Below are positions 9,336 through 41,419 of a stretch of 45,346 bases of DNA, piece by piece. A program made the position numbers and the translations under genes. The first letter of the stretch is position 1; every line of letters starts with the position of its first letter. This DNA comes from Ectocarpus siliculosus (Eukaryota > Sar > Phaeophyceae > Ectocarpales > Ectocarpaceae), in NCBI GenBank assembly GCA_000310025.1, contig FN649742.1, forward strand, positions 2,910,341 through 2,955,686. The letters run 5' to 3'. Under the pieces are notes generated by a model. It saw only the letters and a program-made list of their open reading frames with translations. It was not told the DNA's origin and did no database searches.

Positions 9336-12300
9336 TTACACCCCGCAGGGAGTACCGGTGGTGGTGATGCCACCGTCGAGGAGGAGCATCTGCCCGCACA
9401 TTTGGATGGAGGACGGGCTGACAAGGTACACCACGCCGTGTGCCATCTCCCAGGGCTCCGCAAAACGGCCGAGAGGGGTGCGGTCCACCATGGGGTCGCC
9501 CTTCTCCGGCTTGCTGTCGGGGTTAGGACAAGAGGAGGGCGTTGGTCGGAACGAACAGGCGCGATCAGGACACAAGGATCATCAGGGTGAGGAGTTACGG
9601 TTTTCCGCGACATTTTTACTTCTGTAACACAAGAACAGCGTTCTTGCTAATGCGAGCAAAATAGTTTGTTTGCTGTGCGCAAAAGAGCGTCAGGCTCCGT
9701 GTTTTGCTTATCTGCTGCGAAACTGATCGATTCCCCGGGTCACAACCTGCGCTTAAGAACGACCGACGACGCTCAAGAGAAAATGGTAAACTTGGATCAA
9801 GCTTCAGCCTCATGATTTGCCCACGTTCAAGAAAATTCATCATTCGACGGCAACCGCAAGAAAATGATCTGCGCATATTACACCGGGGGAGTGGCGGCGG
9901 GGAAAATGTGGTTCCTTACCCCCACGCTTTGGTGCACATGTCAGTCAAGACGATGGTGGGGCCGATGGTATTACAGTTGATGTCGTGCTTGGACCACTCC
10001 GCGCTCATCACCTTGATTCCACACGCGCGATGCGAAGAGCACAATCGAAGCCAGTGGGGGGACGTCCAGAAATTGTGCTGATGATTTCAACGCCACGTTT
10101 GTTTGCTGCTTCCCTGTAAATCCTGTGCCTCACGCTGCCTCATGTATCACAAACACGTGCGATACGACACCTTAGTGCTGTGCGAAACGGTTTAGATTGT
10201 CGTGGCACTATACCCGGCTCACTTTTGTGAGACCATTGATGGCCGCCTTGCTGGTGCAGTACGCAGCGTGGTCGTGCAGTGCGAAGCGAGACGCTGTACT
10301 TGAGGTGTTGACGATCTTTCCTCCCTTGCCGCGCGCGATCATCCTCTTGGCGCACTCCTGGGCCATGATGAAGGGCGCCCTAACGTTCACCTTCACGAAA
10401 CGACCCACACACAAAAGAACGAACGTGAAGGTCCCTGTTGTATCCTACCTACCAGTGTACGCGTGAGTGTGGGTTCAGGCATGAACATCATAGGGAAGAT
10501 CCTCTCACAAAGCAACAGGAAGTTCCTCGAGTACGGGCAAGAGATAGCCATTGTAGAGCATGCACCTTCTGCACAAAGGGTCTGACTAAAGCCTTGCCAT
10601 GTCTGTCTTGGCATATCGTAGCACTAGATGCTTGTTCATGCGGCTCTCTGGGCGAAAACAAGTGTAAACAACTTAGGTATCACGCAGGAAGGGTCCTTCA
10701 CGGCTACTGTTTCCGGTCCCTCTCCTATTTCTTACGTTCATGGTCCAGTCCCAGTCCTCGATGGTGGCCTCGAGAATGGGGGCTATAGTGGCCACGCCAG
10801 CTGCAACGAAGCGCGGACGAGGATAGCGCAGCACAGTTGGGGGCAAGTGGAACAGCACAATATCAACGCCAAGCGAGGAAGGGTCCATCTATGCCTCGCC
10901 AACAGCCCACAGCTTAACATCTACCGCAAACCAAGCAAAACAAGTTGTTCCATTTTCTTTGCGCTACAAGTATCCGAGTGCGGCCAGTGGCTAAGCCCAC
11001 CTCCCATGCTATTCACATAGAGCGACCACCTGTTGGAGGACAACCAACTGGTGCATTCCGATCAATCGGTGAAGCTCACCGTTGTTGACGAGGATGTCCG
11101 CGCAACCGCCCGCCCAGTCATTTGCTTCGACGGCTGCTCGCCTGATGTCGTCCGTGCTGGACAGATCGATTGGAATGAAGTGGGTCTTGTCGACCGGCAG
11201 TTTCTTCTCCTCGAGAACAGGAAGGAGGCCGTCGAACTTTGACCGGCTCCTCGCGAGAACAGCGACGGAAGCACCTGCTCGGAGCTGGGGAAATCCCCGA
11301 GCCACGACGTATGAGGGGGTCAGACGTACACCAAAAACACAGGCAAGCAGTAGGAGGGATATATTGCTTGCGAAGAATAGGAGCTTCACTGTCTGTCGCG
11401 TTTTTTTATGAGCGGTCGGGTATTCTGCATTCGGTCTTAGACCACAAGCACAACCAAGCTGGCAAAGTCACCAACTGTAGTCCGTTGTTTTTCAAACAAA
11501 CTTGTTCGCTCATGGGTAGATCGGAAAATGGTGTCACCAATGGCGTTCAGTTGGAATGGTAATACATCAGTGTACGTACACGAAATCCCGGCTCACCGAG
11601 TGTGTCTGACACTACTACTTGTACACCAGTTTAATAGCTTCTGCATCTAGCAATGGGAAGCGGGGCGCGTGCTTATGGTGCGTGGTTTACATAATGTAAA
11701 TGTAAAATAGCGGCACCCTTGAACAGTTTCAACGCTCTCAAACGGTTGTCGCGATAGTTCATTGGTCGAGCTTTTTTTACCTAGACACGACAGACACAAT
11801 ACGAGCAATGATGTCACGCATTTTACATTCGTCTACGCCGTCTAGCGCCGCTATATACACCAGAAAACTTGACGACAGAGTGAGCCGACGACGATGAACG
11901 TTCTTGTTATGCCGCCTTACTCGAAGATAGCCAACGCGCCAGAGCGTAGCGTTGAACAGGTACACATATTGCTCCCTAGCTTTGTCGGTGTCCGATGAGT
12001 TGAACACGCAAATCATGATGAAACGAGAACACATCATCACCAGAACTCTGCTGCCTGCCGTGTCTGCATTATCTGTATTCACGTAAGATGGCTCCTTCGT
12101 CATGGACAACCGTAGTCTTGTACTACGACGACCCCTCTCACCAGTGCCTCGGTGATACTCGCACCAATGCCCGCGCTACCTCCTGTCACGATAGCCGCCT
12201 TGTCGGCTAGCATGTCGCACCTCCACGGGAACGGAGGTTCTTCCGGGGGCGCTCGGCCAGCCACCCCCCGACTTGAGAGCACCCGAAGTGGCCCGCGCAA

Positions 12301-12336
12301 AAAAATCTGCATCGGAGCCCGACCTATGATGGCCAT
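9336..12336 (-). CDS. Short-chain dehydrogenase/reductase A (L-xylulose reductase-like), with N-terminal extension
   Basis: Six exons, 12336-12142, 11284-11080, 10800-10736, 10390-10223, 10011-9920 and 9513-9336, give a 300-aa classical SDR with stop TAA at 9336-9338. Cofactor motif TGGSAGIG is in exon 1. NNAG is split by a phase-1 intron (exons 2/3). The catalytic Asn lies in VNVRAPF (about N157), Ser about 186, and YxxxK as YCTSK (Y199, K203). The C-terminus has GPTIVLTDM, PLGRFAEPWE and a final DGG. ARSRSK after beta-strand 2, without an acidic residue, suggests NADP(H). The closest family I recognise is L-xylulose reductase and related sugar/polyol SDRs; the substrate is unknown. The extension before FPWRCDML is rich in Arg, Leu and Ser with no acidic residue in its first 30 positions, like a mitochondrial or plastid presequence. 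ATG 12336 is chosen because the homologous ATG is kept in copy A'; an in-frame ATG at 12396 is an alternative. All junctions keep frame. Confidence 0.88.
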
Positions 12337-13293
12337 GTTGCGGAAGGCCACAGAAAAACACCAAACCCTAGCCGGGGCCCCTATGTACAACCTCACGCAG
12401 CTTATGCCCGCTCCCCTTTAGTACCGGACAGAGGTGATTCTTGAAGGTGGTCGTATGCATGGACAGCAGCGGCGAACTTCCACACGCGCCGCTTGCATTC
12501 GTGGGGTTTCGAACTGACTCTATCTTGACAGTGGCGGGGGGGGGGGTATGAACTCCTGACGCTAGATCCAGAACTTGTTGGCTGCTGGACTGGAGCAGGG
12601 ATGCACGAGCTCGTGCAACAACGACGGCAATAGGAGAGACTATAGGCAGTCCGTGCGCGTGGGTGGGTGCCTGCCAGCGTTTGCGCGGCTTTCCATCCAG
12701 GCTTCAACCGCGAGAAACGCGGTGTTCCTCTCCTGCACCCACTGCTGTGCGTGGTGTGCATGGTAAGAGCAAAGTGTTCGTTCTGAAGAAGGGACCGGTA
12801 TTATGTGGTGGTCCGTTGCAACACCGCAACACCGAACGTCGAAATGTGGAATCCACCATTTGCGGGAGCTGATTAGCGGAGCAAGGTGCGAACTGCGAAC
12901 TGCGAACTGCGAAAAAGTGATAGGGTAGAACCTGTTGGGTTTACTTGTTGAATATGTTCCCGCTCGGGGTGGTCTATGTGGCAGTTGTGCCGCACCGGCG
13001 GCTGATGTATGGGGCCAATGTACAGGCAGTATGCATATCTTCGATCTTCGAGGACACCAGGCGCCGCGCGGTAAGACTACTCTGTACATCTTGTGCATGA
13101 CCCTCGTCCTGCTCACTCCTGGTAAGAATTTCAACATATGCCCACCCATTTCAAGACGACCCCCGGATGGGTAGCAGTTCTTCTGATGTATGATGTTATA
13201 TATATACTTACAGGATGGTCGTCGTGACGTGACACATTTCTTGTTATTAGTATGGAAAAAAATAAAAAAAAAATGGCTGTGATAATTTTTTTC

Positions 13294-13912
13294 GTACAGC
13301 GGTATGGACCAGACGCCGACTGTACATAGAAGTTGGCGAGTGTCGACTGAGTTGTGTTGTGACGGCATCTTCCACGCACTTCTGCCAGTGCTGGTTTGTT
13401 GATTGGAGTCTTGTAGGTCGAGATACAGCAGTGGGATTCTCGGGTTGTGGAGGCAAAAGTGAACCAGAGCAAAAAATTTCATGCATAGCCATAGCTCGAT
13501 TACTGCTGCTGTGTTTTTGCTACAGCAGTATGGACTAGACGCCGAACGACGTCCGCGTGCTACAAGTACCGCAACGACCTAACGGGATGGGATACTTCCT
13601 GCCACGGCGAACCATAGTACAATGCGATGCAAACATCCGTTCGTGTGTCGCGCGGCTGCCACATGTGTCGACGACAGGTACACGTAGAGCTCTCGCCATG
13701 TTGTCGTTACCGCGCAGGAGGACCCCTCGGAGATGTTCCACATGGTGCTACAACGACAGCAGTACTACTGTACATAGATGTCGTAGGAGAGTGGAGTTGT
13801 GCTGTCACGGCATCTCCCACGCACTCTCCTACCGGTGCTTGTGTCGATTGGAGTCTTGTAGGCCGAAATACAAGAGTGGGTTGGACTCTCGGGTTGTGGA
13901 AGCAAACCTGCC
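13294..13912 (+). repeat. Pair of imperfect direct repeats of about 160 bp
   Basis: About 13,294-13,452 and 13,745-13,912 share ACTGTACATAGA, a GTTGTG..GTCACGGCATCT.CCACGCACT segment, GATTGGAGTCTTGTAGG and TCTCGGGTTGTGGA. They lie in the spacer between genes B and A; no gene was recognised in them. Confidence 0.6.
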
Positions 13913-14100
13913 TGCAACAACAGAGAAGGCGGTGTTCTATTTACTATAATAGAGTATCCCGCTCAACTTTTTTTTTTTTTCGCGGCATGTCGTCGCATAT
14001 TTCTATGCCACTGCCGAAAAAGACCGCTGGATCTTTTGCGCAGTAAATCTTTTGCATTTATCATTTTACACTGAACGACGCAGGACGGGTCGACCTTCAT

Positions 14101-14160
14101 CGTTGTTGTTGTTGCTGTTGTCTCCACATTAAAAACCGTTCCGACGTCCTCCTCGATACT
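14101..14160 (-). repeat. (AAC)n-tailed short element, copy 1
   Basis: On the plus strand (GTT)n, interrupted by GCT, runs into TCTCCACATTAAAAACCGTT. Read on the minus strand this is a unique 3' end followed by an (AAC)n tail, as in SINE/LINE-type retroelements. It is the shortest of five copies. Confidence 0.5.
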
Positions 14161-16486
14161 TGTGGACTACCTGTTGGAAATTGTGGGAATCCCTTCATTC
14201 TGAGAGAGAACCATAGGTCGCCATCCGGCCTTTTCTTTTTTTGTATGCACTTTTCTTCTTGTGAAGTCTTGACGTTGTGCGCTTGCCATCGTCGCCGCGT
14301 AAGTGTTTGTGTCTTCAAACCTTCTCAGCCGGCCTTCAAACTTCTTGTTGATAAGTCTCCGTGTGGTAACTTCTCCGCGCATGAGTCATATGCAGCTATG
14401 ACCTGCGCTTTGACTTTCACGATGGGTATTTTACCTCCCCGTCTTGCGTTGGTGAGTACCTGCGGCGATATATATACAGAAGGATCGCTCCACGACGCAA
14501 ACGTCGACGTCTCCGTTCTTTTTTTGTTCCCTTCGCACTCCATCCTTGCCGCGGTTTTCACCCCGAGTTCGAACGTGGGGTGCAATTTCCTCTCTTCGTA
14601 CCTTCCTCGTCGGCCTTCTCCGTCGTTGTGTACATAATGTGTACCTCCATTTTTCGGCTTTTCGATTCCGACAGACAACACTACGGACTGACATGTTCCG
14701 TTCACCCCCGACGGGACCGCGCGCTCGTCGAGTGCCGAAATTCTTCATCACTTCCTTGCCTCTCCCAACACCGCGTGCCTTCTTCCCGCCTTTACAAATC
14801 CTCTCCCCTTCTTCTCCTTCTTTCCGTCCTCCCGGACATTCACCACCATCCGTCCTGGATGTTGGCCCACAGCCCCATTGGGGGGCGGGGGGCCAATCCT
14901 TAACCCTTGTTCATACTAATGTCAGTGCGGTTGCCTTTTCAGCAACAATACTTTGAATTTTCGGACCTGGGAGCAGTGTGGCATTAAAAAACTACGAAGC
15001 TCCTCTAGCATGTCTATGCATATATTTTGCACAGCCTGACTACCAAACTGCCTTGTTGGGCCTGTTAACCACAGGGCGCGATATATCGTTGTAGATATGT
15101 ATGTGGTGCTCAGCTGCGACCCACCCGTAGAAACAGCAGTCAGTTTCCGCAACTGCTGAGAATCCATCGTTGCTACAACAGCAGAAAAAATGAAAAAAAT
15201 TCGGTCCGGATTCTTTGTTCATCTTTGGTCGTGGAGACAAGTTCTTATGTTCTGCAGAATGGAACGAACCGTACTCCGAAGTGGATGGTTTGATATGTTG
15301 TGCGGGGGAGTACGAAAGTACTTCATGATACATGTATTCAGCAAGCAAGCATAGCTTGGGGATAGACACCCAAAAGAGTGAAGATTCGGGGAAGGATCTT
15401 TTGTACTGAGGTCACAACTCGTGATGTGAAGACAAAACACCAGCGACGGCAAAGTGTGTGATCTTGCACACAATGCGTCTATAGTAACGATGCGGACCTC
15501 CAATCCTAAACGCAGTCGTGATCTTGAAGAGAGGAAGGGGGGTAGCTGTGCTTCGAAAGTTCTCTAGCCTCGCTTAGTGAAGCCCGCGTGGAATTTTGAC
15601 TGCTCGTTTAGCGGACGGACGAAGTAGTCCTCTTACTCGTCATGTACGACACTACTAGCCGAATCAACTGCTGCTGTACATTGTCGATCGGGCTTTGCAC
15701 GGGTCTCGCTCCTTGCACGGTGTAACACGGCTCATCAGTCTCACAGTCGGTTAAAGAACTAGCTGAGCGTGTGAATACATCTTGGTTCTCCCACCTCACA
15801 CTGGCATTTGGTTGTTAGACCATCGAGAGATACGTGACAGCAAAAGAGAGAACGGTCTCAACGTCGCACTCCGTCTGAACAACATACATGCCGTCCAGAT
15901 CAAATGCAAAGGAAAAAGTCGTCCTTGTTGTCACGCCGGAAACCGTCGCCACGCCAGGAACAACACCGAAACGAAAAAGAAGTAGGAAATCGTGTGGCCC
16001 TGGATACGGGCGTGAGCTCGAGTTTCATCTCCACAGAAGCTAGAGCAGTAGAGCGTTTTGCAACCTGAGTTGTTCAAATGCCTTTCGGAGGACCATGTTC
16101 CGCTCGCTCCTACCCTTCTACCATCTGCCCCTGCTGGGCACGTACACACCAAGCCGATAGATGAGCAATCAATCTGCAAACAAACAACGCATGACCTCTG
16201 ACCACGCCTGTGCGTTTGGGAACAAACACAAGCGACGCCTAGAGACCCCCATGTCCCACACAAGAGACGTCGAGTTAAGGGAAACACCCAACGCACTTTA
16301 GGCTACACGATGGCACCGCAACGACCACAACAGATAGCGGCTCATGTACACAATTCCATAGCGAGCGCAATTCTATTCAACACCGCTGCGAGACAAATTA
16401 AGCATCTACGGACCACCAAATGTTTGTAAGACACATCTAAGAGGCACAATCCCTTCCTCTGATGTCGACAGCGTCGGTTCGGGCGA

Positions 16487-19400
16487 CTACGTTCCGCAGG
16501 GTGTACCGGTGGTGGTGATGCCACCGTCGAGGAGGAGCATTTGTCCGCACATCTGGCTGGAGGACGGGCTGACAAGGTACACCACGCCGTGTGCCATCTC
16601 CCAGGGCTCAGCGAAGCGGCCGAGAGGGGTGCGGTCGATCATGGGGTCGCCCTTCTCCGGCTCGCTGCGAGAAAGCATTATGATGAAGCACGTAGCAAGA
16701 CAAGAGGGGACGCGGAGGGGGGAGCGTGGGGGACGAATACGTGAGAGCGAAGACGAAAAAAGGTGCATCACCATCCACAAGGCGAATACGGAGAACGCAG
16801 AGGGACCCGACTTAGCCAGTTTTTCAACTCCTGCACACACGGGTGGATAACTTCTTCAACACCTATGACTGGTCTACACGCAATGTTGGATGTCATGTCT
16901 TTCGTAAACTTTACGTAAAAAGCAGCGTGGTCATTCATGTATGAAGAGCGTGCGGTAAGCAAGTTGCTGTGGCAGTATCTCTTAGCTCCGAACTCGCACT
17001 CGGGGTGGTATATGCAACTGTCGTCAGCCTGTGTGCGTTGGCGGATAGCACGATGGTGCGTCTTGCAAAGGTTTCCCCAGTGCCACTCCTTCTGCAGCGC
17101 GATTTCTCACTCGTCTCTCCTCTCACCCAGCGTGTCAGGCGAACCAATCACACGCAAACAACGGAGAGCTCAACATTACGTTGACACCGTCTTGTCGTTG
17201 TGGTGTGCAGTACACAGATACCGTTGTATACACGAGAGAGGGGCGGGGGCAGGTTACGGCGACTCACCCCCACGCCTTGGCGCCCATGTCGGTCAAGACG
17301 ATGGTGGGTCCGACGGTGTTGCAGTTGATGTCGTACTTGGACCACTCGGCGCTCATCACCTTGACCCCCAGTAACCAAACACAGCAAAAGGACGTACCGA
17401 GGGGGTGAGAAAAGAGGAAGGCGATGATGTGTGCAGGCACGCATCGTTTTGACTACAAGCAACCATTTACTGCACTCCGGCGTACACAGTTTATTTCATC
17501 AACTCATGCGTACCCATCTCAGCAGTAGTGGTTCAGCATAAAACAGCCAGAATGAAAAGAGCAGACCGAGGCCTATGAGCAGCATGCGGCGCCATTCTTG
17601 TATACGAAGATCTCGCTCCAGCACACCGTGCTCCGTCAACTTTATAAAGTGAGGCCACGACAACCAAAAACGAAGCTCCCCTCAAACACGAATAGAACCT
17701 CTACAGGCGCAAGGATCGATACTAAATGTCTCGAAACGGACAGATTGGATACAGTTTCACGAACCATATCGTCCATGACTACTTCTGCTACGGTGCCTGT
17801 TTCTCTCCATTTGATCTGCAGATACATTTCTACATGAAAACGCTGCACACCTACTGAGTACGGAGCGCTCTCGCGAAACACACCGAACGTGCTACACACC
17901 AAGGCCACATACCAGGCCATCACGAATAAATCGTACACGGGCACCTTACCTGTTGGGTATCTAGAAATGCCTCGTTGGATGCCCACTTCCCCTCCTGTTT
18001 CTCTCTAGCTTTCACTGTGGTCAATCCATGTCTGGCTCACCTTAGTGAGGCCTTGGATGGCGGCCTTGCTGGTGCAGTACGCCGCGTGGTCGTGCAGCGC
18101 GAAGAGGGACGCCGTGCTCGAGGTGCTGACGATCTTTCCTCCCTGGCCGCGCGCGATCATCCTCTTGGCGCATTCCTGGGCCATGATGAAGGGTGCCCTG
18201 ACGTTCACCTGATGCACAAGAGAAAAGTGGGGAAAACAGTCAGATTGTCTCCTGCCACACTTCATGTTTTACCAATAGACTGTGAAAGAACACCTCCCTG
18301 GGAATCATTTTTCAGGTCTTCCGACATCGGTTTTGTTAACAAACTTCCCACTCTAGCCCCCGCAACTCTTCTCTGGGACTCCTTTGAATAGACCCAAGCC
18401 TGAACAATGGCAGGAAAACCAACACCGTGAGAATACGAAGCCCCCCCCCTGGTGAGGCTGTACCAAAACGTGAAGAACTGAACCGCCCCAAGCACAGCGG
18501 TATGTTCGAGCCTTTCAATAGTGCCATCCTCAACCGCCGTCTCATGAGCAACCACCGACCTTCGACGTTCGAGAGCTTATCACGCTGTGCGAGGGTTGGA
18601 TGCTGGATGTATCACACCAATCGCAACATGAAAAAACTCAATAGGCCCTTCTGTCACAGGTATTTTGATCCCAGTTTACTCACGTTCATGGTCCAGTCCC
18701 AGTCTTCCACGGATGCTTCAAGGATTGGCGCGATGGTGGCCACACCAGCTGGAAAACGACCGCGCACGGGGGGGGGGGGGGGTTAGCATCGTGAACAAAA
18801 AATCATCCGTGTCAGGTGTCACGCAACCAAAGAAACATGAGTGATACATGGTTCCGTAGACAGGCCATGAAAACTAAAGAGGATCCAAGAGGTATTTTTC
18901 ACGCTGTTGCGAGGTAGAAACTTGACAGCCCTCTGTGTATAAGCTTGCCCTAGTCCGTCAGATTTCGACTGAGGAATCGTTTGTCTCAGAAACTGTGCGG
19001 GATATTCCTAGATCCAGTCTTCGGGATACGATGAATTTGGCGAGCACGACGAGAAATTGGATATTGAAAATTGTCGCTCGAAAGCAAGCGAAAGGTAGAA
19101 GATGACGGTGGTTCTGAAGGGCGAAATCAAATCCTGCACATGCGCTGAGTTTAAAGAATCCAAGCGTTGGATCTGTCCAACGTTCAATTCAAGTGCCCCT
19201 AGGTGTCAACTCTGAATTTCAAACGGGCTTTACTATTTTGTACTCTGTTGTTATTATCGCGAGAAGGGCGAGCCGTCCCTTTTCCCCGTCGACCGCGAAG
19301 TCAAAACCGTCAACGCTCACGAATCAATCGTTTCCCACAGAATATTGCAGAGGCGGTCTCAGTCTAGAGAGAATTGAACTGCCTACTGTACTATAGATAT

Positions 19401-20567: not shown

Positions 20568-20622
<55 letters not shown>

Positions 20623-22140: not shown

Positions 22141-22243
22141 CGGCACCGATCACGAATGAATGAATAGTATATTATAGACTATCCGTCTACGGCATGTCGC
22201 TCTGCAACCCCGACTTCACTCCTTCCTGTCCTATCTACTGCTG

Positions 22244-26392: not shown

Positions 26393-26431
<39 letters not shown>

Positions 26432-28443: not shown

Positions 28444-28492
28444 GTTAACTTACCCTAAAAAGGTACACACTCAAATAAACTGGCCCCGAGGG

Positions 28493-30594: not shown

Positions 30595-33500
30595 TTACGT
30601 TCCGCAGGGAGTACCGGTGGTGGTGATGCCACCGTCGAGGAGGAGCATCTGTCCGCACATCTGGCTGGAGGACGGGCTGACAAGGTACACCACGCCGTGT
30701 GCCATCTCCCAGGGCTCAGCGAAGCGGCCGAGAGGGGTGCGGTCGATCATGGGGTCGCCCTTCGTCGGGTCGCTGCGACAAAGGATAGCAATGAAATGAA
30801 GCACTTAGATAAACAGAGGTTACGCGCAGGGCGGGGGTGTACTCGTAGTCGTGCATGCCGTAGTCGTTCGACCATTGACCTCGCATCCCTACAAAGCCGG
30901 GACGGAGCACGCCGGGTTCTCACCGGACCAGGCTCTCACATCACCAAGCGCGAATCGCCGTGAGTATTCGGCGAGTCGCATGAAGGGTACGCTGCATCCT
31001 GCTAAGGGTGTTCGGCATCTTGTGCTTACTTCCTTGCGTACGGATGACAGCTGCGTATGACTTGATTTATTTTCTGGTGCTTTCACTTCCAGAGACAGTT
31101 ATAAGCACTGTGTAACTGCCTCGAGGATGCTTGACCATTTTAACACAAACGTGGTGCGATCATTCCCCTTGCGCGAGTGAGGCTTCTCGACCCCGCACAA
31201 CATGATCTACTCGACCACCATTGTGGTTACCGCCAAAAAAAAACGAAGGTACAAACAAAACGGTAACCTGGTTGCCGAGGTCACGGAAGTGAATTGACTT
31301 CTTTTACAACGTCGTTGCCAAGCGACGAAAACCCAATCCCGACGGCAAACACCGAGGCGGGTGAAGGGGGGGGGGGGGTGTAACTCATATTCCTGCATGC
31401 CGTAGTCGTTCGACCATTGACCTCCCATCCCTACAAAGCCGGGACGGACCACGCCGGGTTCTCACCGGACCAGGGGGGGGGGGGGGGTGGAGAAAACGTT
31501 TGGAGCCAACACGAAAAAAGGTGAATCACCATCGAAAAGGCGAATACGGAAAACGCAGAGGGACCCAACGTTCTGCTTTTCATGCGATAAGCAAGTTGCC
31601 GTGGCAGTAGAGCTCCGAACTCGCACTCGGGGTGGGATATGCAACTGTCGGCAGCCTGTGTGCATTGGCGGATAGCACGATGGTGCGTCTTGCAAAGGTT
31701 TCCCCAGCGCCACTCGTTCTGCATTGTAATTTCTCACTTGTCCCTCTCCTCTCACCCAGCGTGTCAGGCGAAACCAATCACACGCAAACAGTAGAGAGAT
31801 CAACATTACGTTGCTGAGGAAGAAAAGGCGGGACACAAGTGTGGCACACCGTAAGTCGTTGTGGTGTGCAGCACACAGGTACCGTTGTAAACACGAGAGG
31901 GGGGAAGGGGGGGGGGGTACGGCGACTCACCCCCACGCCTTGGCGCCCATGTCGGTCAAGACGATGGTGGGGCCGACGGTGTTGCAGTTGATGTCGTGCT
32001 TGGACCACTCCGCGCTCATCACCTTGACCCCCAAGCAACAAAACAAGACGAAAAGGACGGACCGACGGGGTGAGAAAAGAGAAAGGTGATGGTGTATGCA
32101 GGCCAGTTTACAAAGTGTGGCCACAACCAAAAAACGAAACTCCTCTCAAATACGAGTAGAACCTCCACAGGCGCAAGGATAAGACACCATCTCAAACCGA
32201 CAGATTGGATACAACTTCCACGACCCATATCGCCCATGGCTCTTTCTGCTCCTGCTGTGCCCCTTAGGCTGAGTCTTACGGCTTGATTTTTTCCGGATTG
32301 GATTTTGGGGGGGGGGTCCTTTTCTGAGCCAAAAATAATTATTTGGGCGTCTTACGGGTAGGAAAATGTCAATTTCCAACAGTCCAAAAATCCAACAGCG
32401 ATTCCGGCCGGCCTGTTAGAAAATTGGCCCATTTTCCAACGGCGATCCTGTTGGAATATCGTTGTTAGAAATGGGGGGGGGGGGGGGTACCCCCTGGTCA
32501 CACCCCGATCGTACAAGAGCGAGAAACGACACCGTCTGCTGGCCAAACAGAGGCCAGTATCATGAGGTCATGCACAAACCTCTGAAGGTCTCTGAAATTC
32601 AGGGCGTTCTGCGTCGTGTTGGTCGCACACGAGCCGAAAACGTCAACCCTGCCACATTGCTCTGCTAACGTTCTTGCCGTTCGGCCGAAAAGAGCCGTTT
32701 TTTCGCCTGCTTCATGTGCGACCAGTTGAAAACGCACGCCAGAGAGAGGCCTTAAGCCGTCGACATCCACAAACTGCAGCCAATGGCGTGTGGTCATACT
32801 CGTACCCTCTGCTCGGTCACCAGAAACAGAGCGTATTGTGCAGTTTTGATTGTACACGGCTTGCAAACGTGAACCAAAGTGTGTTGCGATGTTGAATTTT
32901 TGGTCTTTTTTCTTGTTCCACGGCGTGTTTGCTCCGTGTGTCACCCGCTACCAGTCAAAAACGCATGCCAGAGAGAGGCCTTTGGCCGACGACATCCACA
33001 AACAGCAGCCAGTGGCGTGTGGTCATACACGTACCCCTTGCTCGTGTCCCAGAAACAGAGCTCATTGTCCAGTTTTGATTGAATACCGCCTGCAAACGTG
33101 AACTGAGGTGTGTTTCGGTGTTGCCTTTTTTGGACGTCGCCTTTTTTTTCTGCTGCTTGCTCCGAGTCGAGTGTGATCAGTGTACAACGCATGCCTTCAG
33201 AGAGAGGCCTTTGGCCGACGACATTCACAAACTGCAGCCGATAACGTGCGACGATACACATGCCCTCTGCAGGCAACCCATAAATAGGGCGCTTGGTGTC
33301 TTGTTGGTCGCACACGAGCCAAAACCGTGTACTGAAGGATGTTGTGATCCACAAGAACATGAATCAGCCTCTTTTTTCCCTTCAGAAAAAAATATCCTAG
33401 AGAAACCGTAAGACGGTCGTTTGGATCTTGATCATTTTTTCCGTGCAGCCCCCCCCCGACTGAGAGAAAAAATCTCAGAAATAATCAAGCAGTAAGACTC

Positions 33501-36500
33501 GGCCTTACTCTCTATTTGATCTGCAGACATTTCTACATGAAAACGCTGCATTCCTGCTGAGTACGGAGTGCTCTCGCCAAGCGCACCAAATGTGCCACAC
33601 ACCAAGCACTCATTCCAGGTGATCATATAATATCGCATCCAACCTGTTGCAATCTAGAAATGCCTCGTTGGATGCCCACCCTCTTCTTTCTTTCTAGCTT
33701 TCACTGCGGTCCATCTTATGTCTGGCGTACCTGAGTGAGGCCGTTGATGGCGGCCTTGCTGGTGCAGTACGCCGCGTGGTCGTGCAGCGCGAAGAGGGAC
33801 GCCGTGCTCGAGACGCTGACGATCTTTCCTCCCTTGCCGCGCGCGATCATCCTCTTGGCGCACTCCTGGGCCATGATGAAGGGTGCCCTGACGTTCACCT
33901 GATGCACAAGAGAAAAGTGGGGAAAACAGTCAGATTGTCTCCTGCCACACTTTTATGTTGTACCAATAGGTTGTGAAAGAACACCTTCCTGGGAATGGTT
34001 TTCCAGGTCTTCCGACATAGGTTTTTAGAAAGTATACATAACCTCACAGAAAGACCACCCGTTCGAGATAATACCACAGCAGTCCAAGGGGATGCGTTGA
34101 ATTCTTTACAGTGATTGATTGATGGGATGAAGAAACCGGCTGGATACTGGGCTTATTTAGGGTCTAGTTGAGCCGATACACTGACATATTATCAGTGATG
34201 CCAGCAGGTGCTAATCACAAAAACACTGTATAGGTATATATAAATACATGAATATCACCAGATATCTCCTCCGTAGTTTCATGCTATCTAGGAGTCAACG
34301 ACAAAAACATCGGTTTTATTCAGTAGAAACTTCCCACTCTACCCCCCGCCCTCACTCCCGCAACTCTTCTCTGGGCCTCCTTTAATTAGACCAAGCCTGA
34401 ACAAGGGCAGGAAAACCAGCACCCTTCACACACAAAACAACAATACGAAAGAGGCCCCCTCGTGAGGCTTGCTTTGCCAAAACGCGAAGAACCTACCCAC
34501 CCCAATCACAGCGAGGTATGTTCGAGCCTTTCCATGGTGCCTTGCTCAACCGCCGCCCATTAACAACCACCGAACTTCGACGTGCGAGAGCTACTGCTGT
34601 ATCACCAATCGCACCATGAAAAAATTCAAAAGGCCATTCTGTCAACAGGTATCTTGATGCTAGTTTACTCACGTTCATAGTCCAGTCCCAGTCTTCCACA
34701 GATGCCTCAAGGATTGGCGCGATGGTGGCCACGCCAGCTGGAAAACGAGCGCGCGGGGGGGGAGGGCGTTAGCATCGTGAACAAAAATGACCAATCATCC
34801 ATGTAACACTGCTTCTTATGAAGCAGCAAGATGCACAATAAGCTGCAAGTCTTTTTGCAACTTTTGGTCGGGAACCCTTGTCGATGTAACTTTTCGTGCA
34901 CGGGACTGGCGGAATGCGGAGGCGTGGTCAATTTTTTTTTTAGCAACGGCGAGAAGCAGGCACACGCCTTTCATATCACACCGCGAAAAACCGGCCAGAA
35001 CGTGCGGGAGAGGATAGTTGCAACCTTTTTTCTCCACACTCACGATACCCCAAGGAATCTAACGTGGTACCAGAAAGATGCCGGATAGAGCTACCTCCCT
35101 CTGGGTGGCAATCCTGTTGCTGTTGCCTCCTTCGAAAACGTTATCGCTGAAAAACCAAACCATGAGCACACAATCCCCGCGAACTTGAACCAACCGCTCT
35201 CTGACGTGGGTATTGTAGGGTCAATCAAAGCTTTACCCCACGGCACCAAGCCTTGGGCATGAACGATAGAGCAGAGAGCTACCTCCCGCCAAGTGGCCTT
35301 GCTAATGTTGTTGCTCTCTCCTTCGGAAAGTTATCGGTGGATAACCAAACCCGTCGCGGTCAAAAACGCCGAACTGGAACTAACCGCTCGCGGCCGTTGA
35401 CGATCGTGCACAGCACAAACTTTTTTCCTGGCGCATTCGGCACCTCACGGTGCCAAACCTTCGCATTGCCCAACAGCCCATGGCATCACCTCCTTCCAGG
35501 TACCATTCATGAGGCAACTCGTTAAGTAGTCGTCGACATATCGGTGATCATGGCCTTCCCACAATCGAAGCTGGAGAGGGTCTACGTGTGTGGTACCGGT
35601 AGCAGCTTGACGTGGATTGACCCAAGTTGCGCCGCGCAACGTTTGTTCGACACCTTCGTGGCGAAAAAAGTTGGATAACCTTTTCTCCAGATTGCAGCGT
35701 TTTGCTCCCATACTGAGCGTACCTGAGGAAAAAGTTGCAAAACTTCAACATTTCTTGCAACCAGCGTTCCCGCTAGGGCCGCAGGCCCTTCGTGCGGCAA
35801 AGCAGCCCCCCGCAGGGGCCCCCCGGGAGGGCGCCCCTCGCGTAGGGGCCTCCTCGGAGGGGTCGCCGGAGGCGGATGTTTTTGACGATTTTCGACGTAT
35901 TTCTTGAAAAATCTTTCAAAAACAGCATCAAATTATCAATTGCTGTGTTGTTCACCTGATTTGAGACATAGTATACCTTGTTTCCCAGCGAAACTGTGAC
36001 AAATGTGTAAGATTGAACGAAGGAAATCTGGGGTTTGTGGCGCGGGATTGAATCGTACAGTGGCAAGGTAGGCAAGAAATTGCAAAGAAGTTTCATCGGA
36101 AGGTTGGATGAGCACGGTGGTGATGAAGTATTGGAGTACAACTTCAGCAGCAGCAGCAAGAAGAGTGCACACCGCAGCTGCTCCTGTGAGACAATGGGGC
36201 GATCTGCCGTAGAGGTCATCGCGTGTGTATTAGGTAAAGGTCAGGGGTGGGCTTCGGCTAGGTGATTGGCCGGAAACCCTCCCGCCCTCCCTTCCGGGTG
36301 TTCGTGAAGGGGACCAGGGGTAGAGAGATTAGGTGCGACAGCCTGCCTAGGTTTATAACAAACAGGTAGCCTTCGCTGACGCTATGGATTCATTGCTAAT
36401 CTATCTTAGACTCTTTTCTTAGATAGAGATGGATTCGTTGGCGTCATATATATATATATAAAAAAAAGTATTTTCGCGCTGTCGACAGGTAGAAACTTGA

Positions 36501-39500
36501 CAGACCACTGTAAATAAGCGTTGGCTTAGGCTGATTCTTTTCAGGATGGGCAGAAATCCGGCTTCTTATGCAGCCAGATTCTTCAGTTTTTTTGGTCGAC
36601 AAAATCCGGCTTCAGCTTTTTGGGTAGCCTCCACCCGAAAAGTTTGGAAGAAATCAGGATGGTGCCCACCCAGATTTCTCATCCCAAAAAGTTCACCGCT
36701 GGGTGAACCCAGACGACAGTATCATCGAGTGCGACCTGAGTTCTGGACGTATCGCTCCCATCAAGGGCTCCCAGCAACCCTACGCCGAAGGGCTTGCTAT
36801 TCTGCACGCTGGCTGTTGATGGTCGCTAGGCACGCGTGCGTAAAAAAAACATATCGCATCACACCAAGCATGGAGACGCCGAAACAGGCCAACTCGCCAC
36901 GAGACAGAAAAAAGAGCCGCTTTTGTCAGAGAGGGGAGGACACCGCAACTGATTTCTCGCTCCCTAGGCCACCGATCGAAGCCAGACTGGTCAGGGCGTG
37001 CTCTCTGTTACTTGCTCTCTGCCGGAGTAGAGTTGCTCAGCAGCTCGTTGATCCAATCATTCGAAATCGTCGTCTGCGTGTAGACAAGCTGTGTGTTGAA
37101 AAAAAATTCCAGGTCTTCAACACAATACTCTATTCTCAAGTGAAGCAGACCAGAAAAAATCACAGTTCAAAAGAGCAACGGGCACCACGCGCATGCTTCT
37201 CTCCGTCGATCGAGCGTACGCGCTGCCGAGCAAATTTACTCCGGCAGAGAGCAAGGAACAGAGAGCACGCCCTGACCAGTCTGGCTTTGATCGGTGGGCT
37301 AGGGAGCGAGAAATCAGTTGCGGTGTCCTCCCCTCTCTGACAAGAAGCGGCTCTTTTTTCTGTCTCGTGGCGGGTTGGCCTGTTTCGGCGTCTCCCATGC
37401 TTGGTGCGATGCGATATGTTTTTTTTACGCACGCGTGCCTAGCGACCATCAACAGCCAGCGTGCAGAATAGCAAGCCCTTCGGCATAGGGTTGCTGGGAG
37501 CCCTTGATGGGAGCGATACGTCAACAAGAACTCAGGTCGCACTCGATGATAATGTCGTCTGGGTTGATCTACACCCACCCCCCAAGAATCCGCCTCAGGA
37601 ATCCGGCTCACTGTAAGAACGGCCGGACTTTTTTCCAGCCGGGTTTTCGCCCATCCTGAAAAGTGAGTTTGTTTGGGAAAGGAATCCAAGTGTATAAGAA
37701 TCAGCCTTAGTCCGTCGTATGTATCGACTGAAAAATTCATTGTCGCAGAAACTGTGTGGGATATATTCCTAGATCCGGTCTTCGGGATATGATGATACAT
37801 ATTGGCGAGCACGACGAGAAATTGGGTTGAAATTATCGCTCGAAAGCAAACTAAGGGTAAGTATATCAGTGGTTCTGAACGGCGAAATCAAATGCTGAAC
37901 ATGTGTTGAATGTTAAGAATCGACGCGTCGGACCTGTCCAACTCTGAATTCAAGGCTTCGTAATTTTTGTATGCGCACATGTACTCTAATAGTTGTTTGC
38001 ATTGCGAGAAGGGCGAGCCGTCCCTTTCCAGACCGGGCAGACCATGCACAACATTTATCAGGGGCACTGCTGCCCTACTGTACCGCTGTAACTGTCCAGC
38101 TGTCCAGTGTCATGTTGGAATTTTATGTTCAACCCATGTCCTCTCGGAAAATGCTCGCGGAGGCGGAAGGGAAGCTGAACACAACGAAAATGCCAACACG
38201 AGTGAGTGTGAAAATTGAAAATTGTGGATATGTGAGGGGGCGACCACTCCACCCCACCTGCCCGTTACTGCTGTACCAACAGCAGTCAGTCATCTTGTGG
38301 TACTGTAGTCCAACCTGCTACAATTAGGGAATAATAAAAACACACACAGAAAGACCACCCATTCGAGATATACCCACAGTCGAACGGGATGTGGTGGAGT
38401 CTTTTCAGTGAGTGGAGGGAAACCGGCTGGGTACTGCTGTGTACTACTTCAGCATTATAATACCGTATAGGACACAAGATAACACACCCCCTTGGCCGAT
38501 TTTCAAAGCTCGATTTCTCAACAGCAGGAAGAGTCACGGCGCCGAAAACGGCAGCGTTGGAATCGTCTCGTCGAGAAATTTTCGAAAATGTATCGTTTTG
38601 TTTGTGCATCCTCTTCGTCGTGGAGTAATCGAGCTTTGGAAATCGGTCCAGGGGGTGTGTTATCTTGTGTCATATACGGTAGTTGTTGTTGTTGTTGTGT
38701 TCACATTAAACTTGCGTCAAATCCCAAAATCTAGCAAAGACGCGGTCCGTTGTCACAAAACATGTGAGGAAAAATAAAAGCAAACACAGAGAGACTACAA
38801 ATACCCATTCGAGATATAACCACCGTCGAACGCATGCCACGTACGTACGAGGTTCACCATAGATCGACCGCCGGGGCGACCGGCTTGTTCCGGGAAATTT
38901 TCCTGCCCGGATTCTTCGTCCACACAAAAAATTTAGAGTTGTACTCTAGGGTGAGCGTGATCGGCGGATGAATGAAAAATCAGGCCAGTTTTTTTCATCA
39001 TCAAATGGAAGCGTGCAATCCTAAATACCTAGCGTCGACGGACAGCGCGCGGGACATGTACAACGCCATGCGCTCAACAGGGTGAGGAGCCAGGAGAAAT
39101 GCTAGCCCTATCCTGCAGAAAATGCAGCTCTCGTGGGCGTGTTTTTGCGTCCATCAAGGGACAGGATTCGCCGCGGCTTGTTGTTTTCGCGGGAAAAAAA
39201 AAGACGTGCGCAAACGACGGAACCTAAAAATGCTTCCGGAAGAAAATCAGCCATGATGCTGCTCATCTCTGCACCACAACTGCTGTCACTACGGTCCCGC
39301 AATGAGCTACCCACATCGGGTTGTCCCTTGCATGATAGTGCTAGAGTGTCGCTTGCTCTCGGGCGGTATGGGCGGGATGGATTCGTGTGTGCTGAACATC
39401 TGTGCTTTTAAGAGCTCTTCGCGTGGCTCGGAAAAGAGCGGCACGTGCCAAGAACAATACTAGAGCAGCCCCTCCCTAAACAGGCGTGGTAGATTTAGAC

Positions 39501-39966
39501 CGTGATGGTGAGCAGCATTCCGAGGGGAGGCACCACGCTTACTCCACCCGTGTCCTTACCGGTGCACAGCAGTGCGGGCCCTGAGCTGCAGCGTGGTAGA
39601 TCCGCACAATTGCTGTGGGGTGTTGTGATTTGTATGATTGACTCACCGTTGTTGACCAGGATATCCGCACAGCCGCCGGCCCACTCGTTGGCCTCCACGG
39701 TCGCCTTCCGGATGGCATCCGTGCTCGACAGGTCGATGGAGATGAAGGTGGTCTTGTCGACCGGCAGCTTCCTCTCCTCCAGGACGGGGACGAGCTTGTC
39801 GTACTTGGAGCGGCTCCTCGCAAGCACCGCCACGGAAGCCCCAGCCTGGAGCTGTGCACGAGAGCGCGCGAGAGAGACAGAGAGAGACAGCCACAGGAAC
39901 ATGCGGTAGGGGGAGAAGGAAGGATTTCACGCGATGCTTGTGTTCCTCGATTGCCGTGATGCAGCC

Positions 39967-40009
<43 letters not shown>

Positions 40010-40286
40010 GCACACAACTCAACACGCACGCGCACCAAGCACCGACACAGCGCGCGCACAGCTATACCCCCGGCCCCCCTGCAGCTGGCCGAAGCCACAA
40101 AAGAACACAACAGCACTACTATGCATTGTAGGCGAAGAAGAAGCCTCCGCTGCCTCTCACCAACGCAATTGTGATCGCCGCGCCGATGCCCGCGCTTCCT
40201 CCCGTGACAATGGCCGTCTTGCCCGCGAGCATGTCGCTCCGCCACGGGAAGGACGGCTCGGCGGGTGCTTCTCTTCCGGCAGGCAT
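30595..40286 (-). CDS. Short-chain dehydrogenase/reductase B' (L-xylulose reductase-like), intron-expanded copy
   Basis: Six exons, 40286-40161, 39851-39647, 34737-34673, 33898-33731, 32022-31931 and 30772-30595, sum to 834 nt and 277 aa, exactly as in gene B, with stop TAA at 30595-30597. The start reads MPAGREAPAEPSFPWRSDML. TGGSAGIG, NNAG, VNVRAPF, YCTSK and the final DGG are all kept, with the same catalytic numbering as gene B. Intron 2 is about 4.9 kb, against 1.6 kb in B, because of at least two insertions. Introns 4 and 5 carry one insertion each. Donors are GT and acceptors AG throughout. Differences from B are mostly conservative (for example DPTKGDPM for EPEKGDPM in exon 6, SVSSTAS for STSSTAS in exon 4). 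Open frames and invariant phases suggest the gene is still under selection despite the insertions. Neighbour on the right is the divergent WD40 gene. Confidence 0.87.
30832..31482 (+). mobile_element. Repeat with about 95-bp direct ends in intron 5 of B' (TRIM-like)
   Basis: A block beginning GTGTACTCGTAGTCGTGCAT and ending with TTCTCACCGGACCAGG occurs at about 30,836-30,930 and again, slightly diverged, at about 31,378-31,470. Each is preceded by a G run and the second is followed by G14. The interior of about 445 bp contains no coding sequence. Intron 5 of gene B lacks the whole insert. Short direct terminal repeats around a non-coding core resemble a terminal-repeat retrotransposon in miniature, but no primer-binding site was identified, so this is tentative. 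Confidence 0.6.
32267..33504. mobile_element. TIR transposable element in intron 4 of B' (PIF/Harbinger-like ends, 1,238 bp)
   Basis: The left end reads GGCTGAGTCTTACGGCTTGA and the right end, on the opposite strand, GGCCGAGTCTTACTGCTTGA, giving imperfect terminal inverted repeats. Both ends are flanked by TTA (32264-32266 and 33505-33507). The paralogous intron of gene B (around 17,790-17,805) runs directly from the left to the right flank without this sequence, so it is an empty site. Subterminal poly-G and CGTCTTACGG blocks also recur in inverted orientation. No transposase frame is visible, so it is non-autonomous. TTA target duplications suggest PIF/Harbinger mobilisation; that is an inference. 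Confidence 0.8.
32690..33355. repeat. Three imperfect tandem units of 229 bp inside the TIR element
   Basis: The anchor AGAGAGAGGC recurs at 32741, 32970 and 33199, exactly 229 bp apart each time. Surrounding sequence (GACATCCACAAAC, CAGCC, GTGTGGTCATAC, CAGTTTTGATTG) is shared by the units. 229 is not a multiple of three, so the frame shifts from unit to unit and the open frames here are not a repeated protein. Confidence 0.8.
34810..36460. mobile_element. Uncharacterised 1.65-kb insertion in intron 2 of B'
   Basis: Aligning intron 2 of B' with that of B, the sequences match up to about 34,805 and again from about 36,460 (GTATTTT.CGCGCTG), and the stretch between is missing from B. It contains a diverged internal duplication (about 35,085-35,165 and 35,272-35,350), a GC-rich hairpin cluster at 35,770-35,880, and a (TA)n run near its right edge. 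No clear terminal repeats or known protein domain were seen. Boundaries are approximate. Confidence 0.55.
36529..37706. mobile_element. Foldback/MITE-like element in intron 2 of B' (1,178 bp)
   Basis: The two halves are near reverse complements over several hundred bases: about 36,541-37,030 pairs with about 37,235-37,660, leaving a loop of about 200 bp. The ends are GGCTGATTCTT on the left and AAGAATCAGCC on the right, flanked by TTA (36526-36528 and 37707-37709). The gene B intron (18,945-18,965) shows the two flanks joined without the element. The right arm has about 35 extra bases between the terminal motif and the TTTTCAGGATGGG block. The long open frames seen on both strands here are mirror images produced by the palindrome, not genes. 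Confidence 0.82.
38682..38762 (-). repeat. (AAC)n-tailed short element, copy 5 (second subtype), in intron 2 of B'
   Basis: (GTT)5, GTTCACATTAAACTTGCGTC, CCCAAAATCTAGCAAAGAC and TTGTCACAAAA. Nearly the same body as copy 4. Confidence 0.55.
39969..40008. repeat. (CTG)13 microsatellite in intron 1 of B'
   Basis: About 13 CTG units; (CAG)n on the coding strand. It lies between exons 1 and 2 of B' and has no counterpart in gene B. Confidence 0.9.
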
Positions 40287-41419
40287 GGTGTTTTGGTACA
40301 GACGAGAGGCTAGAGAGGACTGGAGAAGGAGAGGGAGGGGAGGCAGGGAGGAGTGTGGGAGGTGGGTCTGCTTTTGTCCTCGGATCGCGCGCGCGGACAA
40401 AGAAAAAGGTACAGCGAGAGCGGGCCAATATGGAAGATTAGGATTTGTAGGAGTGGTGGGAGTCGTGCGCAATTTTCACAACAACACAGAGCAGGCACAA
40501 CCCCCAGACGGGCCACCTAGGGCGGCGGCCGCAGCGCGACCACGACGGGGGGGGTGCGAGGCTATACAGACGATGCTAGACATCAGTAATGTCTGACCGG
40601 AAACGACGCGACGGCGAAAACTCGTAATCTCGGGTGAACGCGACAGCTTCGGCGGAATTTCATCGGAAAACTGACATGATTCGAGAGGCCGGCAGGCACG
40701 CGCAGGTGGCATGATGAAAGGTTGTTGTATGATATGCACTGCATGCGTAGTCGACGTACGTGATGTGTACCCAAGGGTACCACGTGAGAACACGGACGGT
40801 TAAGATTGGGCCGTGTTGATCGACCAGTCAGCCTGTCTCATTTTATCTTGCATGGTAGAGTCAACAACACACGCATGTGTATAAATTTTTGCACGACGGC
40901 AGTGAGAGAATATAAGATCGTTCAGCGTGCGGAGAGAAAGATCTTGTGCGGGTGAGTACATGTACACGTACACGAACATGTTTTTGTCTACGGATGTGTA
41001 TGTATGCAGTAGCTCTACATCTCTACATGTAATGTTGTAGTTCTCGTGCTTGCCGTCACCCATTACATGCACCCATCTATCAAATCTGCTCCCTTTTAGA
41101 CAGTTGTACTTTTCTTTCGTTCCTCTTTGCCGCACTCATCATTCATCACCCCTAGTCTCGTCTATATGACTATGTAGACACACACCTATTCTATTCTCTT
41201 CGTAAGCATGTGTGATTGTCTCCTCGCGTTGTGGTTACGGCGGGCGTCCTCTCCGCTCTCACATATCTCTATGCATATTTCTCTCTGCACAGTTGGACGG
41301 ACAGTTGGACGGACAACTGGAGAAACTGCTGTGCTGTGCAAGACATAACGAAGGGGTCAGCGGCCGGTGGCGGCTCAAAAACACACATAGTCTAGACTAA
41401 TTGTCAACTTGTACATCCC
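40287..41419. promoter_or_regulatory. Shared upstream region of divergent B' and WD40 genes
   Basis: About 1.1 kb separates two start codons facing away from each other, so both promoters must lie here. The half next to B' is conserved with the upstream region of B (21,170-21,630), including purine-rich GGAG repeats and a GTGTTGATCGACCAGTCAGC block. No core promoter element could be assigned. Confidence 0.4.

Follow-up and report, generated by a model that had tools for sequence, protein, structure and literature searches.

An alternating array of SDR genes in Ectocarpus siliculosus, best read as a two-gene block duplication with a half gene and a mosaic-like gene

Gene models for the window (the whole 45,346-nt stretch of DNA analysed, from Ectocarpus siliculosus contig FN649742.1) contain four related SDR loci, all on the minus strand and alternating as A, B, A, B, with a presequence at the start of the A type and none in the B type. 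The initial annotation had recognized this alternation and ascribed it to one segmental duplication. Duplication of a two-gene block is indeed the best reading of the collinear match described below, but a single event is too simple an explanation, as divergence between the copies is uneven and the first A gene looks like a mosaic. The four reductases counted earlier are, as assembled, three enzymes and a catalytically empty half gene. The array span given earlier, 10405-40877, was also too short, as exons 4-6 of A1 lie before its start. The gene models are as follows:

9336-12336, minus strand: A1, complete SDR gene of 300 aa with an Arg-rich N-terminal extension, GT-AG gene model
12142-12336, 11080-11284, 10736-10800, 10223-10390, 9920-10011, 9336-9513, minus strand: A1 exons 1-6
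10736-12336, minus strand: exons 1-3 of A1 (A-type 5′ half), encoding presequence and cofactor-binding half, dS to B1/B2 about 1.4-1.5
9336-10390, minus strand: B-like 3′ half of A1 (exons 4-6), dS about 0.28-0.35 to B1/B2, with N157, S186, Y199 and K203 in exon 4
16487-21166, minus strand: B1, complete SDR gene of 277 aa without presequence, gene model
21041-21166, 20357-20561, 18684-18748, 18041-18208, 17268-17359, 16487-16664, minus strand: B1 exons 1-6
25478-27205, minus strand: A2, 5′ half gene with exons 27008-27205, 25816-26020 and 25478-25542 only, 156 codons, open
30595-40286, minus strand: B2, complete SDR gene of 277 aa, gene model
40161-40286, 39647-39851, 34673-34737, 33731-33898, 31931-32022, 30595-30772, minus strand: B2 exons 1-6

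A1, B1 and B2 each have six exons, GT-AG introns and identical internal exon lengths (205, 65, 168, and 92 nt). As exon phases are also identical between the A and B types, an older common origin of both, proposed previously, is supported by gene structure. B1 and B2 have 96.2% of core residues in common, and the ratio of synonymous (16/189) to nonsynonymous (13/606) differences between them points to purifying selection (p 2e-4). Introns 2-5 of B2 (four of the five) exceed their B1 counterparts in length, and B2 has insertions missing from B1, one of them with TTA on both flanks.

Comparison of the window with itself by blastn defined the two copies of the block, their least diverged part and the sequence between them:

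10411-21590, unstranded: block copy 1, beginning at the end of A1 intron 3 and reaching into the region upstream of B1, collinear with 25159-40851
25159-40851, unstranded: block copy 2, collinear with 10411-21590
10411-11595 (A1) with 25159-26340 (A2), unstranded: low-divergence segment, introns 3, 2 and part of 1, exons 2-3 identical
21591-25158, unstranded: B1-A2 spacer, occupying the expected site of A2 exons 4-6 and containing an N gap

The match comprises 18 collinear rows that account for 7317 bp of copy 1 (11180 bp), and it is not due to chance because several rows have an E-value of 0. Introns, sequence upstream of A and sequence downstream of B match in one and the same order, in agreement with the earlier claim that introns and spacers of the two copies align. 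The middle of the A-B spacer (13172-15104 vs. 27990-29540) gave no alignment between the copies, and the blocks have different outer flanks. Genes, introns and spacer are thus collinear, as a single event would predict, whereas the divergence between copies is not uniform.

The left edge of the shared block falls inside gene A, therefore A2 is a half gene as assembled. Homology between A1 and A2 stops abruptly at 10411/25159, about 20 bp before exon 4, and the PF00106 match of A2 ends at profile position 106 of 195. No exons 4-6 for A2 were found between B1 and A2 by tblastn with A1, B1 and B2 in a spacer that includes a 348-N gap (23553-23900), which could hide sequence. The sole match in this region (21527-21601, plus strand) was at chance level, with an E-value of 1.0 and a stop, and was rejected. 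Lacking exons 4-6 as assembled, A2 also lacks the N-S-Y-K catalytic set and most likely yields no working enzyme. The spacer had no blastn match to the rest of the window at E 1e-5. Its apparent AT-richness was dismissed, as the G+C value of 0.396 had counted N; without N it is 0.473 (0.479 for 22001-24000, 0.526 for the window).

The second departure from a single event is seen within A1. Results showed that dS between A1 and B1 drops from 1.5 in exons 1-3 to 0.35 in exons 4-6, and between A1 and B2 from 1.39 to 0.28, while B1-B2 values are 0.134 and 0.052. Fisher tests on rounded counts gave 2e-7 and 8e-8 between the halves for the two A1-B pairs, and 0.11 for B1-B2. Change points were supported at core codons 109-126 (A1-B1) and 108-131 (A1-B2), with 0 of 2000 permutations in each case, and intron 3, at core codon 120, lies inside both intervals; no change point was detected for B1-B2 (559 of 2000 permutations). 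As the step in dS coincides with change points spanning this intron, A1 looks like a mosaic with A-type exons 1-3 and B-like exons 4-6, the putative break lying around intron 3. With dS at 1.4-1.5 in exons 1-3 and 0.28-0.35 in exons 4-6, no single age fits the A/B split over the length of the gene.

The copies also differ in how far each part has diverged. Noncoding differences between copies 1 and 2 amounted to 25/899 in 10411-11595, 115/1257 in 11651-13172 and 423/3451 in the B half (from 15104 on), the last being about 12%; these counts leave out three short collinear rows (18896, 19239, and 19729), and there is overlap of a few bases between some rows. The first segment is less diverged than the second (p 8e-10) and the B half (1e-20), and the A upstream sequence is itself somewhat below the B half (p 0.003). 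In coding sequence, no synonymous difference was found between A1 and A2 at 88.5 sites, vs. 11 at 89.7 sites for exons 1-3 of B1 and B2 (Fisher 0.0007). The low divergence in 10411-11595 suggests later homogenization; the A1 and A2 5′ halves were probably homogenized after the block had formed, or duplicated again.

We consider the following account probable, though by no means assured. The gene models, the collinearity, the truncation as assembled, the dS step and the uneven divergence that it draws on are observed, whereas the order of events and gene conversion as their mechanism, like the cofactor, location and function of the proteins, are inferred. Gene A would first have become a mosaic, B-type sequence taking the place of its exons 4-6, or recombining with them, around intron 3. 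The two-gene block would then have undergone tandem segmental duplication with the left breakpoint inside intron 3 of gene A, so that the left copy retained the whole gene (A1), whereas all that passed to the right copy (A2) was the promoter side with exons 1-3, which encode the presequence and cofactor-binding half and no active-site residue. Afterward, probably through gene conversion, the A1 and A2 5′ halves would have been homogenized between the homology end and about position 11600, and insertions would have lengthened introns of B2. A simple tandem duplication leaves no extra junction sequence, yet 3.6 kb (21591-25158) is unmatched; the account therefore also needs either a subsequent insertion at this place or a deletion from copy 2. 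That two breaks should fall in one intron is a mild coincidence.

Alternatively, one breakpoint might have produced both oddities. The 5′ module (promoter, presequence, and exons 1-3) and the neighboring B gene would have been copied beside an orphan 3′ half, exons 4-6, left from an older gene of B-like type; A1 would then be chimeric from its origin, with A2 surviving as the donor-type module. The same 345-bp intron does hold both the end of A1/A2 homology and the mosaic break (core codons 108-131), phase is kept at all junctions, and GC3 rises at the break from 0.72 to 0.82 in A1, though also slightly in B1 (0.84 to 0.88). The new junction of a plain tandem duplication, however, lies at the left of copy 2 and not of copy 1, so that this reading also requires an insertion in which the old 5′ half was lost, and no leftover B-like exons 1-3 were seen beside copy 1. 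We thus regard this explanation as unlikely.

Noncoding sequence bears on a further alternative, in which repeated single-exon conversion homogenized exons 4, 5, and 6 separately and left the introns untouched. Exons 4-6 of A1 are about 90% identical to those of the B genes, while introns 4 and 5 of A1 showed no clear likeness to B1 or B2 (z -0.2, 0.8, 0.3, and 3.6), none scoring above the best of 100 shuffles; for the highest, intron 5 vs. B2, the score was 39 and the best shuffle 42. As these introns do not align, there is no direct sign that genomic B sequence was transferred. The intron test is weak because even the B1 and B2 introns, which dS shows to be much younger, can be aligned in part only; with such rapid decay a missing match is expected. 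In addition, no tract pattern of A1 sharing was seen by eye at sites where B1 and B2 differ. Separate conversion of each exon is, in our estimation, quite improbable. Across all 14 noncoding comparisons of A1 with B1/B2 (100 shuffles each, 60 for intron 2), z was below 2 in 12. A weak likeness between the A1 and B1 upstream regions (z 4.0; 38 vs. 35 for the best shuffle, above all 100) could be old shared upstream sequence.

A1 might also be a mosaic in appearance only, without any recombination, if exons 4-6 were slow at synonymous sites owing to codon bias, splicing or RNA constraint. GC3 is slightly higher in these exons (0.82-0.90 vs. 0.72-0.85), dS is lower there for B1-B2 as well, and dN between A1 and the B genes is about half (0.045-0.051 vs. 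0.096-0.098), which indicates that some rate difference between the halves exists. Yet the B1-B2 difference is not significant, the A1-B step is four- to fivefold, and fourfold sites differ between A1 and B1 at 34 of 56 positions in exons 1-3 vs. 18 of 71 in exons 4-6. Rate constraint as the whole cause is therefore very unlikely.

An assembly artefact, i.e., a misjoin or uncollapsed haplotype behind the second block or the truncated A2, would find some ground in the N gap, which is 1.26 kb from the A2 break and of doubtful length because its edges share 31 bp with one mismatch, but it has little to recommend it given that the break at 25159 lies within continuous sequence, the B halves are about 12% apart in noncoding sequence, B2 carries insertions of its own and the outer block flanks differ.

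An improbable reading gives A2 a role of its own. A2 and B1 are on one strand with A2 upstream, and the phase at the end of A2 exon 3 is that in which B1 exon 4 starts; joined in silico across 7.3 kb, A2 exons 1-3 and B1 exons 4-6 give 302 in-frame codons including the stop, with no internal stop. It is conceivable, at long odds, that A2 is a spare front end, a read-through transcript being spliced from A2 exons 1-3 to B1 exons 4-6 to give a presequence-bearing enzyme of A1 architecture. In that case a single phase-0 intron would be the point at which the array shuffles targeting/cofactor halves with catalytic halves, at the DNA level in A1 and at the RNA level in A2-B1.

B2 matched PF13561 (167.1 bits) and PF00106 (162.7 bits) far above the cut-offs of 27 and 26.6, as a classical SDR should, and A1 matched NCBIfam SDR models over residues 43-292. 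Among structures, the relatives of B2 were the L-xylulose reductase 4egf (2.7e-53), the sorbitol dehydrogenase 4npc (1.2e-51) and human L-xylulose reductase 1pr9 (1.3e-44); for A1, 4npc came first (2.6e-52), followed by 4egf (4.8e-49) and 1pr9 (3.2e-42). The match to the dicarbonyl/L-xylulose reductase SDRs 4egf and 1pr9 is near full length (184/156 bits for B2, 171/148 bits for A1), though the A-type proteins of the array, unlike these, bear a presequence. That to 4npc spans the whole domain (179 bits for B2, 181 bits for A1, whose best hit it is). The best NCBIfam model, for the GolD/DthD family (NF005309), scored 243 bits for B2 and 237.7 for A1, both below its curated cut-off of 286, so neither is counted as a member. 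These matches place the proteins among the classical SDRs, close to L-xylulose reductase and sorbitol dehydrogenase.

N157, S186, Y199, and K203 of A1 align with N107, S136, Y149, and K153 of 1pr9 (counted from the alignment), and we take these positions to be the catalytic residues. The exon 4 motifs that carry them are likewise present in B1 and B2, and the set is complete in all three proteins. An Arg after strand 2, also common to the alignment with L-xylulose reductase, presumably favors NADP(H), as is usual. A1, B1, and B2 most likely encode functional reductases of NADP(H) type and of the L-xylulose reductase/polyol dehydrogenase kind, the suggested substrate class being read only from bacterial and human relatives. 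A1 is possibly organelle-directed. Compared with the basic, acid-free and amphipathic N-terminus of mitochondrial presequence proteins, the first 28 residues carry a net charge of +5 in A1, +4 in A2, +1 in B1, and 0 in B2, with no acidic residue in A1 and A2, but the helical moment of the A-type N-terminus (0.44) was matched by 373 (A1) and 339 (A2) of 1000 shuffles.

For the earlier suggestion of a lineage-specific expansion of a polyol or sugar pathway, which is a conjecture here, two sequence collections were scanned for a close relative and none was found. In viral contigs one stretch fitted a pattern and none encodes a relative; in genome contigs 16 stretches fitted and three encode a relative, all bacterial and, at 37-38% identity, too distant to polarize the events. 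Among the literature matches listed, judged from titles and the starts of abstracts, no paper on such an SDR array was found. For the brown alga Sargassum, PMC12089773 reports 1,587 tandem duplications in S. thunbergii and 1,733 in S. fusiforme; tandem duplication is common there, as it is present at this array. Otherwise, truncation and conversion accompanying tandem duplication are well known, and the array is ordinary save for the half gene and the mosaic. Its practical consequences are that an annotation trap is corrected, four similar loci being three enzymes and a 5′ half gene as assembled, and that whole-gene trees of A and B would combine two histories. Should relatives prove to share the mosaic, it would offer a usable case of recombination at an intron dividing an SDR into a cofactor/targeting half and a catalytic half.

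Finally, the surrounding sequence was scanned. Rfam at gathering scores and a tRNA search gave no matches. Ten ORFs of the flanks, spacer, and B2 intron 2 were compared with Pfam (E 0.01): the two spacer ORFs and two B2 intron 2 ORFs had no matches, a sigma-70 region 2 match was below its cut-off and judged to be chance, and WD40, Prp19-type WD40, and, in a second kinase ORF, a tyrosine-kinase model were likewise below cut-off. Protein kinase and FHA matches scored above their cut-offs.

Comparison of the window with itself revealed two long series of collinear matches, 10411-21590 vs. 25159-40851, which take in exons and introns as well as sequence upstream of A and downstream of B. With such collinear introns and flanks present, the alternating array and the block duplication proposed in the initial annotation are real. 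The 18 collinear rows account for 7317 bp of copy 1, which is 11180 bp long; no alignment was obtained for the central part of the A-B spacer (13172-15104 vs. 27990-29540), and a large part of the B introns was unaligned between the copies. The four SDR loci are as follows:

9336-12336, minus strand: A1, with presequence
16487-21166, minus strand: B1, without presequence
25478-27205, minus strand: A2, with presequence
30595-40286, minus strand: B2, without presequence

Six-frame translations served to model the exons, whose splice sites were then checked. A1, B1, and B2 each have six exons with open reading frames, and exons 2-6 have the same lengths in all three (205, 65, 168, 92, and 178 nt, the last including the stop), with GT-AG at every modelled intron. 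Since A1 extends to 9336, the array start previously placed at 10405 was too far in and missed the last three A1 exons. Nor were four reductases and one event, as claimed by the initial annotation, borne out: A2 is, as assembled, a half gene with no active site, and noncoding divergence between the copies is uneven.

A2 consists of exons 1-3, which are open and near-identical to those of A1 (exons 2 and 3 are identical). Its homology to A1 ends at 25159, equivalent to A1 10411, some 20 bp away from exon 4 of A1. In tblastn searches with A1, B1, and B2 queries (E up to 1), exons 4-6 were not found between B1 and A2; the single match in this spacer, at 21527-21601 on the plus strand (E 1.0, 40% across 25 residues), contains a stop and is no better than a chance match. 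When the 21 exons of the four loci were all searched at nucleotide level against the spacer and both flanks, short matches alone resulted: the best overall, with E 0.021, spans 17 bp of the right flank, and the best within the spacer has E 0.25. A gap of 348 N, located 1.26 kb from the A2 break, could in principle conceal sequence; it may have arisen in scaffolding or by collapse of a repeat. The gap edges (23522-23931) have 31 bp in common with one mismatch, which makes the true gap length doubtful. The same spacer harbors a perfect 30-bp palindrome at 22890-22919. The catalytic positions N107, S136, Y149, and K153 of human L-xylulose reductase have as their aligned counterparts N157, S186, Y199, and K203 of A1, all of which lie within exon 4 (codons 156-211). 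As A2 is without exons 4-6, it therefore comprises the presequence and the cofactor-binding half, with no active site. Read-through past the exon 3 donor meets a stop after 20 codons in A2, and A1 would do likewise. That A2 serves through splicing as an alternative front end for B1, for which only a matching phase and an open frame speak, seems highly improbable. In exon 1, 6/6 base differences between A1 and A2 alter the protein, and one 3-nt insertion is present in addition, as expected of a relaxed A2, although six changes are too few for proof.

One event without later exchange is expected to give even divergence. Noncoding differences, counted with three short collinear rows omitted and a few bases double-counted at row overlaps, amounted to 25/899 at 10411-11595 (introns 3, 2, and part of 1), 115/1257 at 11651-13172 and 423/3451 in the aligned parts from 15104 onward (p = 8e-10 for the first vs. 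second, 1e-20 for the first vs. third, and 0.003 for the second vs. third). Synonymous differences in exons 1-3 were 0/88.5 for A1-A2 and 11/89.7 for B1-B2 (p = 0.0007). The simplest reading is that the 5′ halves of A underwent conversion afterwards, in a stretch running from the limit of the shared homology to about 11600; a younger second duplication of the A 5′ part may have occurred instead.

We determined dS and dN by the Nei-Gojobori method, counting exon 1 from the common FPWR motif onward. In exons 1-3 and 4-6, respectively, dS was 1.5 and 0.35 for A1-B1, 1.39 and 0.28 for A1-B2, and 0.13 and 0.05 for B1-B2; Fisher tests of this step, on rounded counts, gave 2e-7, 8e-8, and 0.11. When third positions of synonymous codons were tested for a change point, the support intervals were core codons 109-126 (A1-B1) and 108-131 (A1-B2), with intron 3 at 120, and permutations were equally good in 0/2000 cases for both pairs and in 559/2000 for B1-B2. 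Base composition is hardly the cause of the dS step (GC3 in exons 1-3 and 4-6: 0.72 and 0.82 for A1, 0.84 and 0.88 for B1). A1 thus looks like a mosaic, with B-like exons 4-6, the catalytic half, behind A-type exons 1-3. Against this count an A1-B dN roughly doubled in exons 1-3 as well, and A1 introns 4 and 5, which gave no alignment to B introns above the best shuffle; the latter has little weight, because B1-B2 introns align just partly at much lower dS. Since the exon 4-6 dS values are near-equal (0.35 and 0.28) and sites differing between B1 and B2 show no visible tract pattern in their sharing with A1, A1 probably acquired its B-like half before B1 and B2 separated. The mosaic and the half gene deserve mention in the annotation, although such event types are already well known. 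The A1 upstream region (12337-13037) bears a weak likeness to that of B1 (21167-21867; z 4.0, above all 100 shuffles), which was not found between the A1 and B1 introns.

We infer the order of the first steps: an ancient duplication would have given A and B, recombination near intron 3 would have placed a B-like catalytic half in A, and a tandem duplication from within A intron 3 would have produced A1-B1-A2-B2, with A2 truncated at birth or soon after. Thereafter, the 5′ halves of A would have exchanged sequence by conversion, the junction (21591-25158) would have gained or lost sequence, and B2 would have received insertions. The nearest rival, a single breakpoint behind both the A1 chimera and the A2 half gene, is unlikely. 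Insertions and repeats comprise:

36529-37706: insertion in B2 intron 2, TTA on either flank, missing at the matching B1 place
30829-31474: short repeated element in B2 intron 5, not in B1
44773-45346: second, inverted copy of this element, running to the window end
634-710: lone partial terminal repeat of this element
32718-33239: 229-bp tandem repeat, 2.3 copies, B2 intron 4
14102-14143, 26394-26485, 28311-28405, 28493-28533, 38679-38760: similar TTG/GTT-repeat patches, in both block copies

The intron 2 insertion has the ends GGCTGATTCTT / AAGAATCAGCC and inner inverted arms (36706-37048 and 37218-37565, 95%), and resembles a PIF/Harbinger-type non-autonomous element; no Pfam domain was found in the two ORFs tried. 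In the intron 5 element, direct terminal repeats, each about 105 bp long (93%), enclose about 440 bp; its copies are adjoined by runs of G or C with lengths of 15, 19, and 26 (31473-31487, 44767-44785, and 45321-45346). Some TTG/GTT patches also match in their flanks and are perhaps a mobile element bearing a microsatellite.

By sequence, the array proteins are classical SDRs. The nearest solved structures to B2 are L-xylulose reductase 4egf (184 bits), sorbitol dehydrogenase 4npc (179), and human L-xylulose reductase 1pr9 (156), while for A1 4npc (181 bits) precedes 4egf (171) and 1pr9 (148). The top NCBIfam model, GolD/DthD, scored 243 and 237.7 bits, under its cut-off of 286, and B2 and A1 were therefore kept out of that family. 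An Arg after strand 2 favors NADP(H) and suggests this cofactor here. Counts of 16/189 synonymous vs. 13/606 nonsynonymous differences (p = 2e-4) show purifying selection on B1 and B2. A-type proteins have a basic N-terminus with no acidic residue (net charge over residues 1-28: A1 +5, A2 +4, B1 +1, B2 0); its helical moment was reached by 373/1000 (A1) and 339/1000 (A2) shuffles, no better than chance, and a mitochondrial address is therefore no more than suggested. In the title of PMC4022671, mannitol-2-dehydrogenase from Saccharina, a brown alga, is called long-chain; the SDR array therefore need not serve the mannitol cycle, even in a brown alga.

Two regions flank the array:

41396-42686, plus strand: ORFs whose weak WD40-repeat matches fall under the curated cut-off; perhaps a WD40 gene beside the array
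664-3514, minus strand: ORFs matching protein kinase and FHA domains (Pfam PF00069, PF00498)

The latter ORFs perhaps form one CHK2-like gene.
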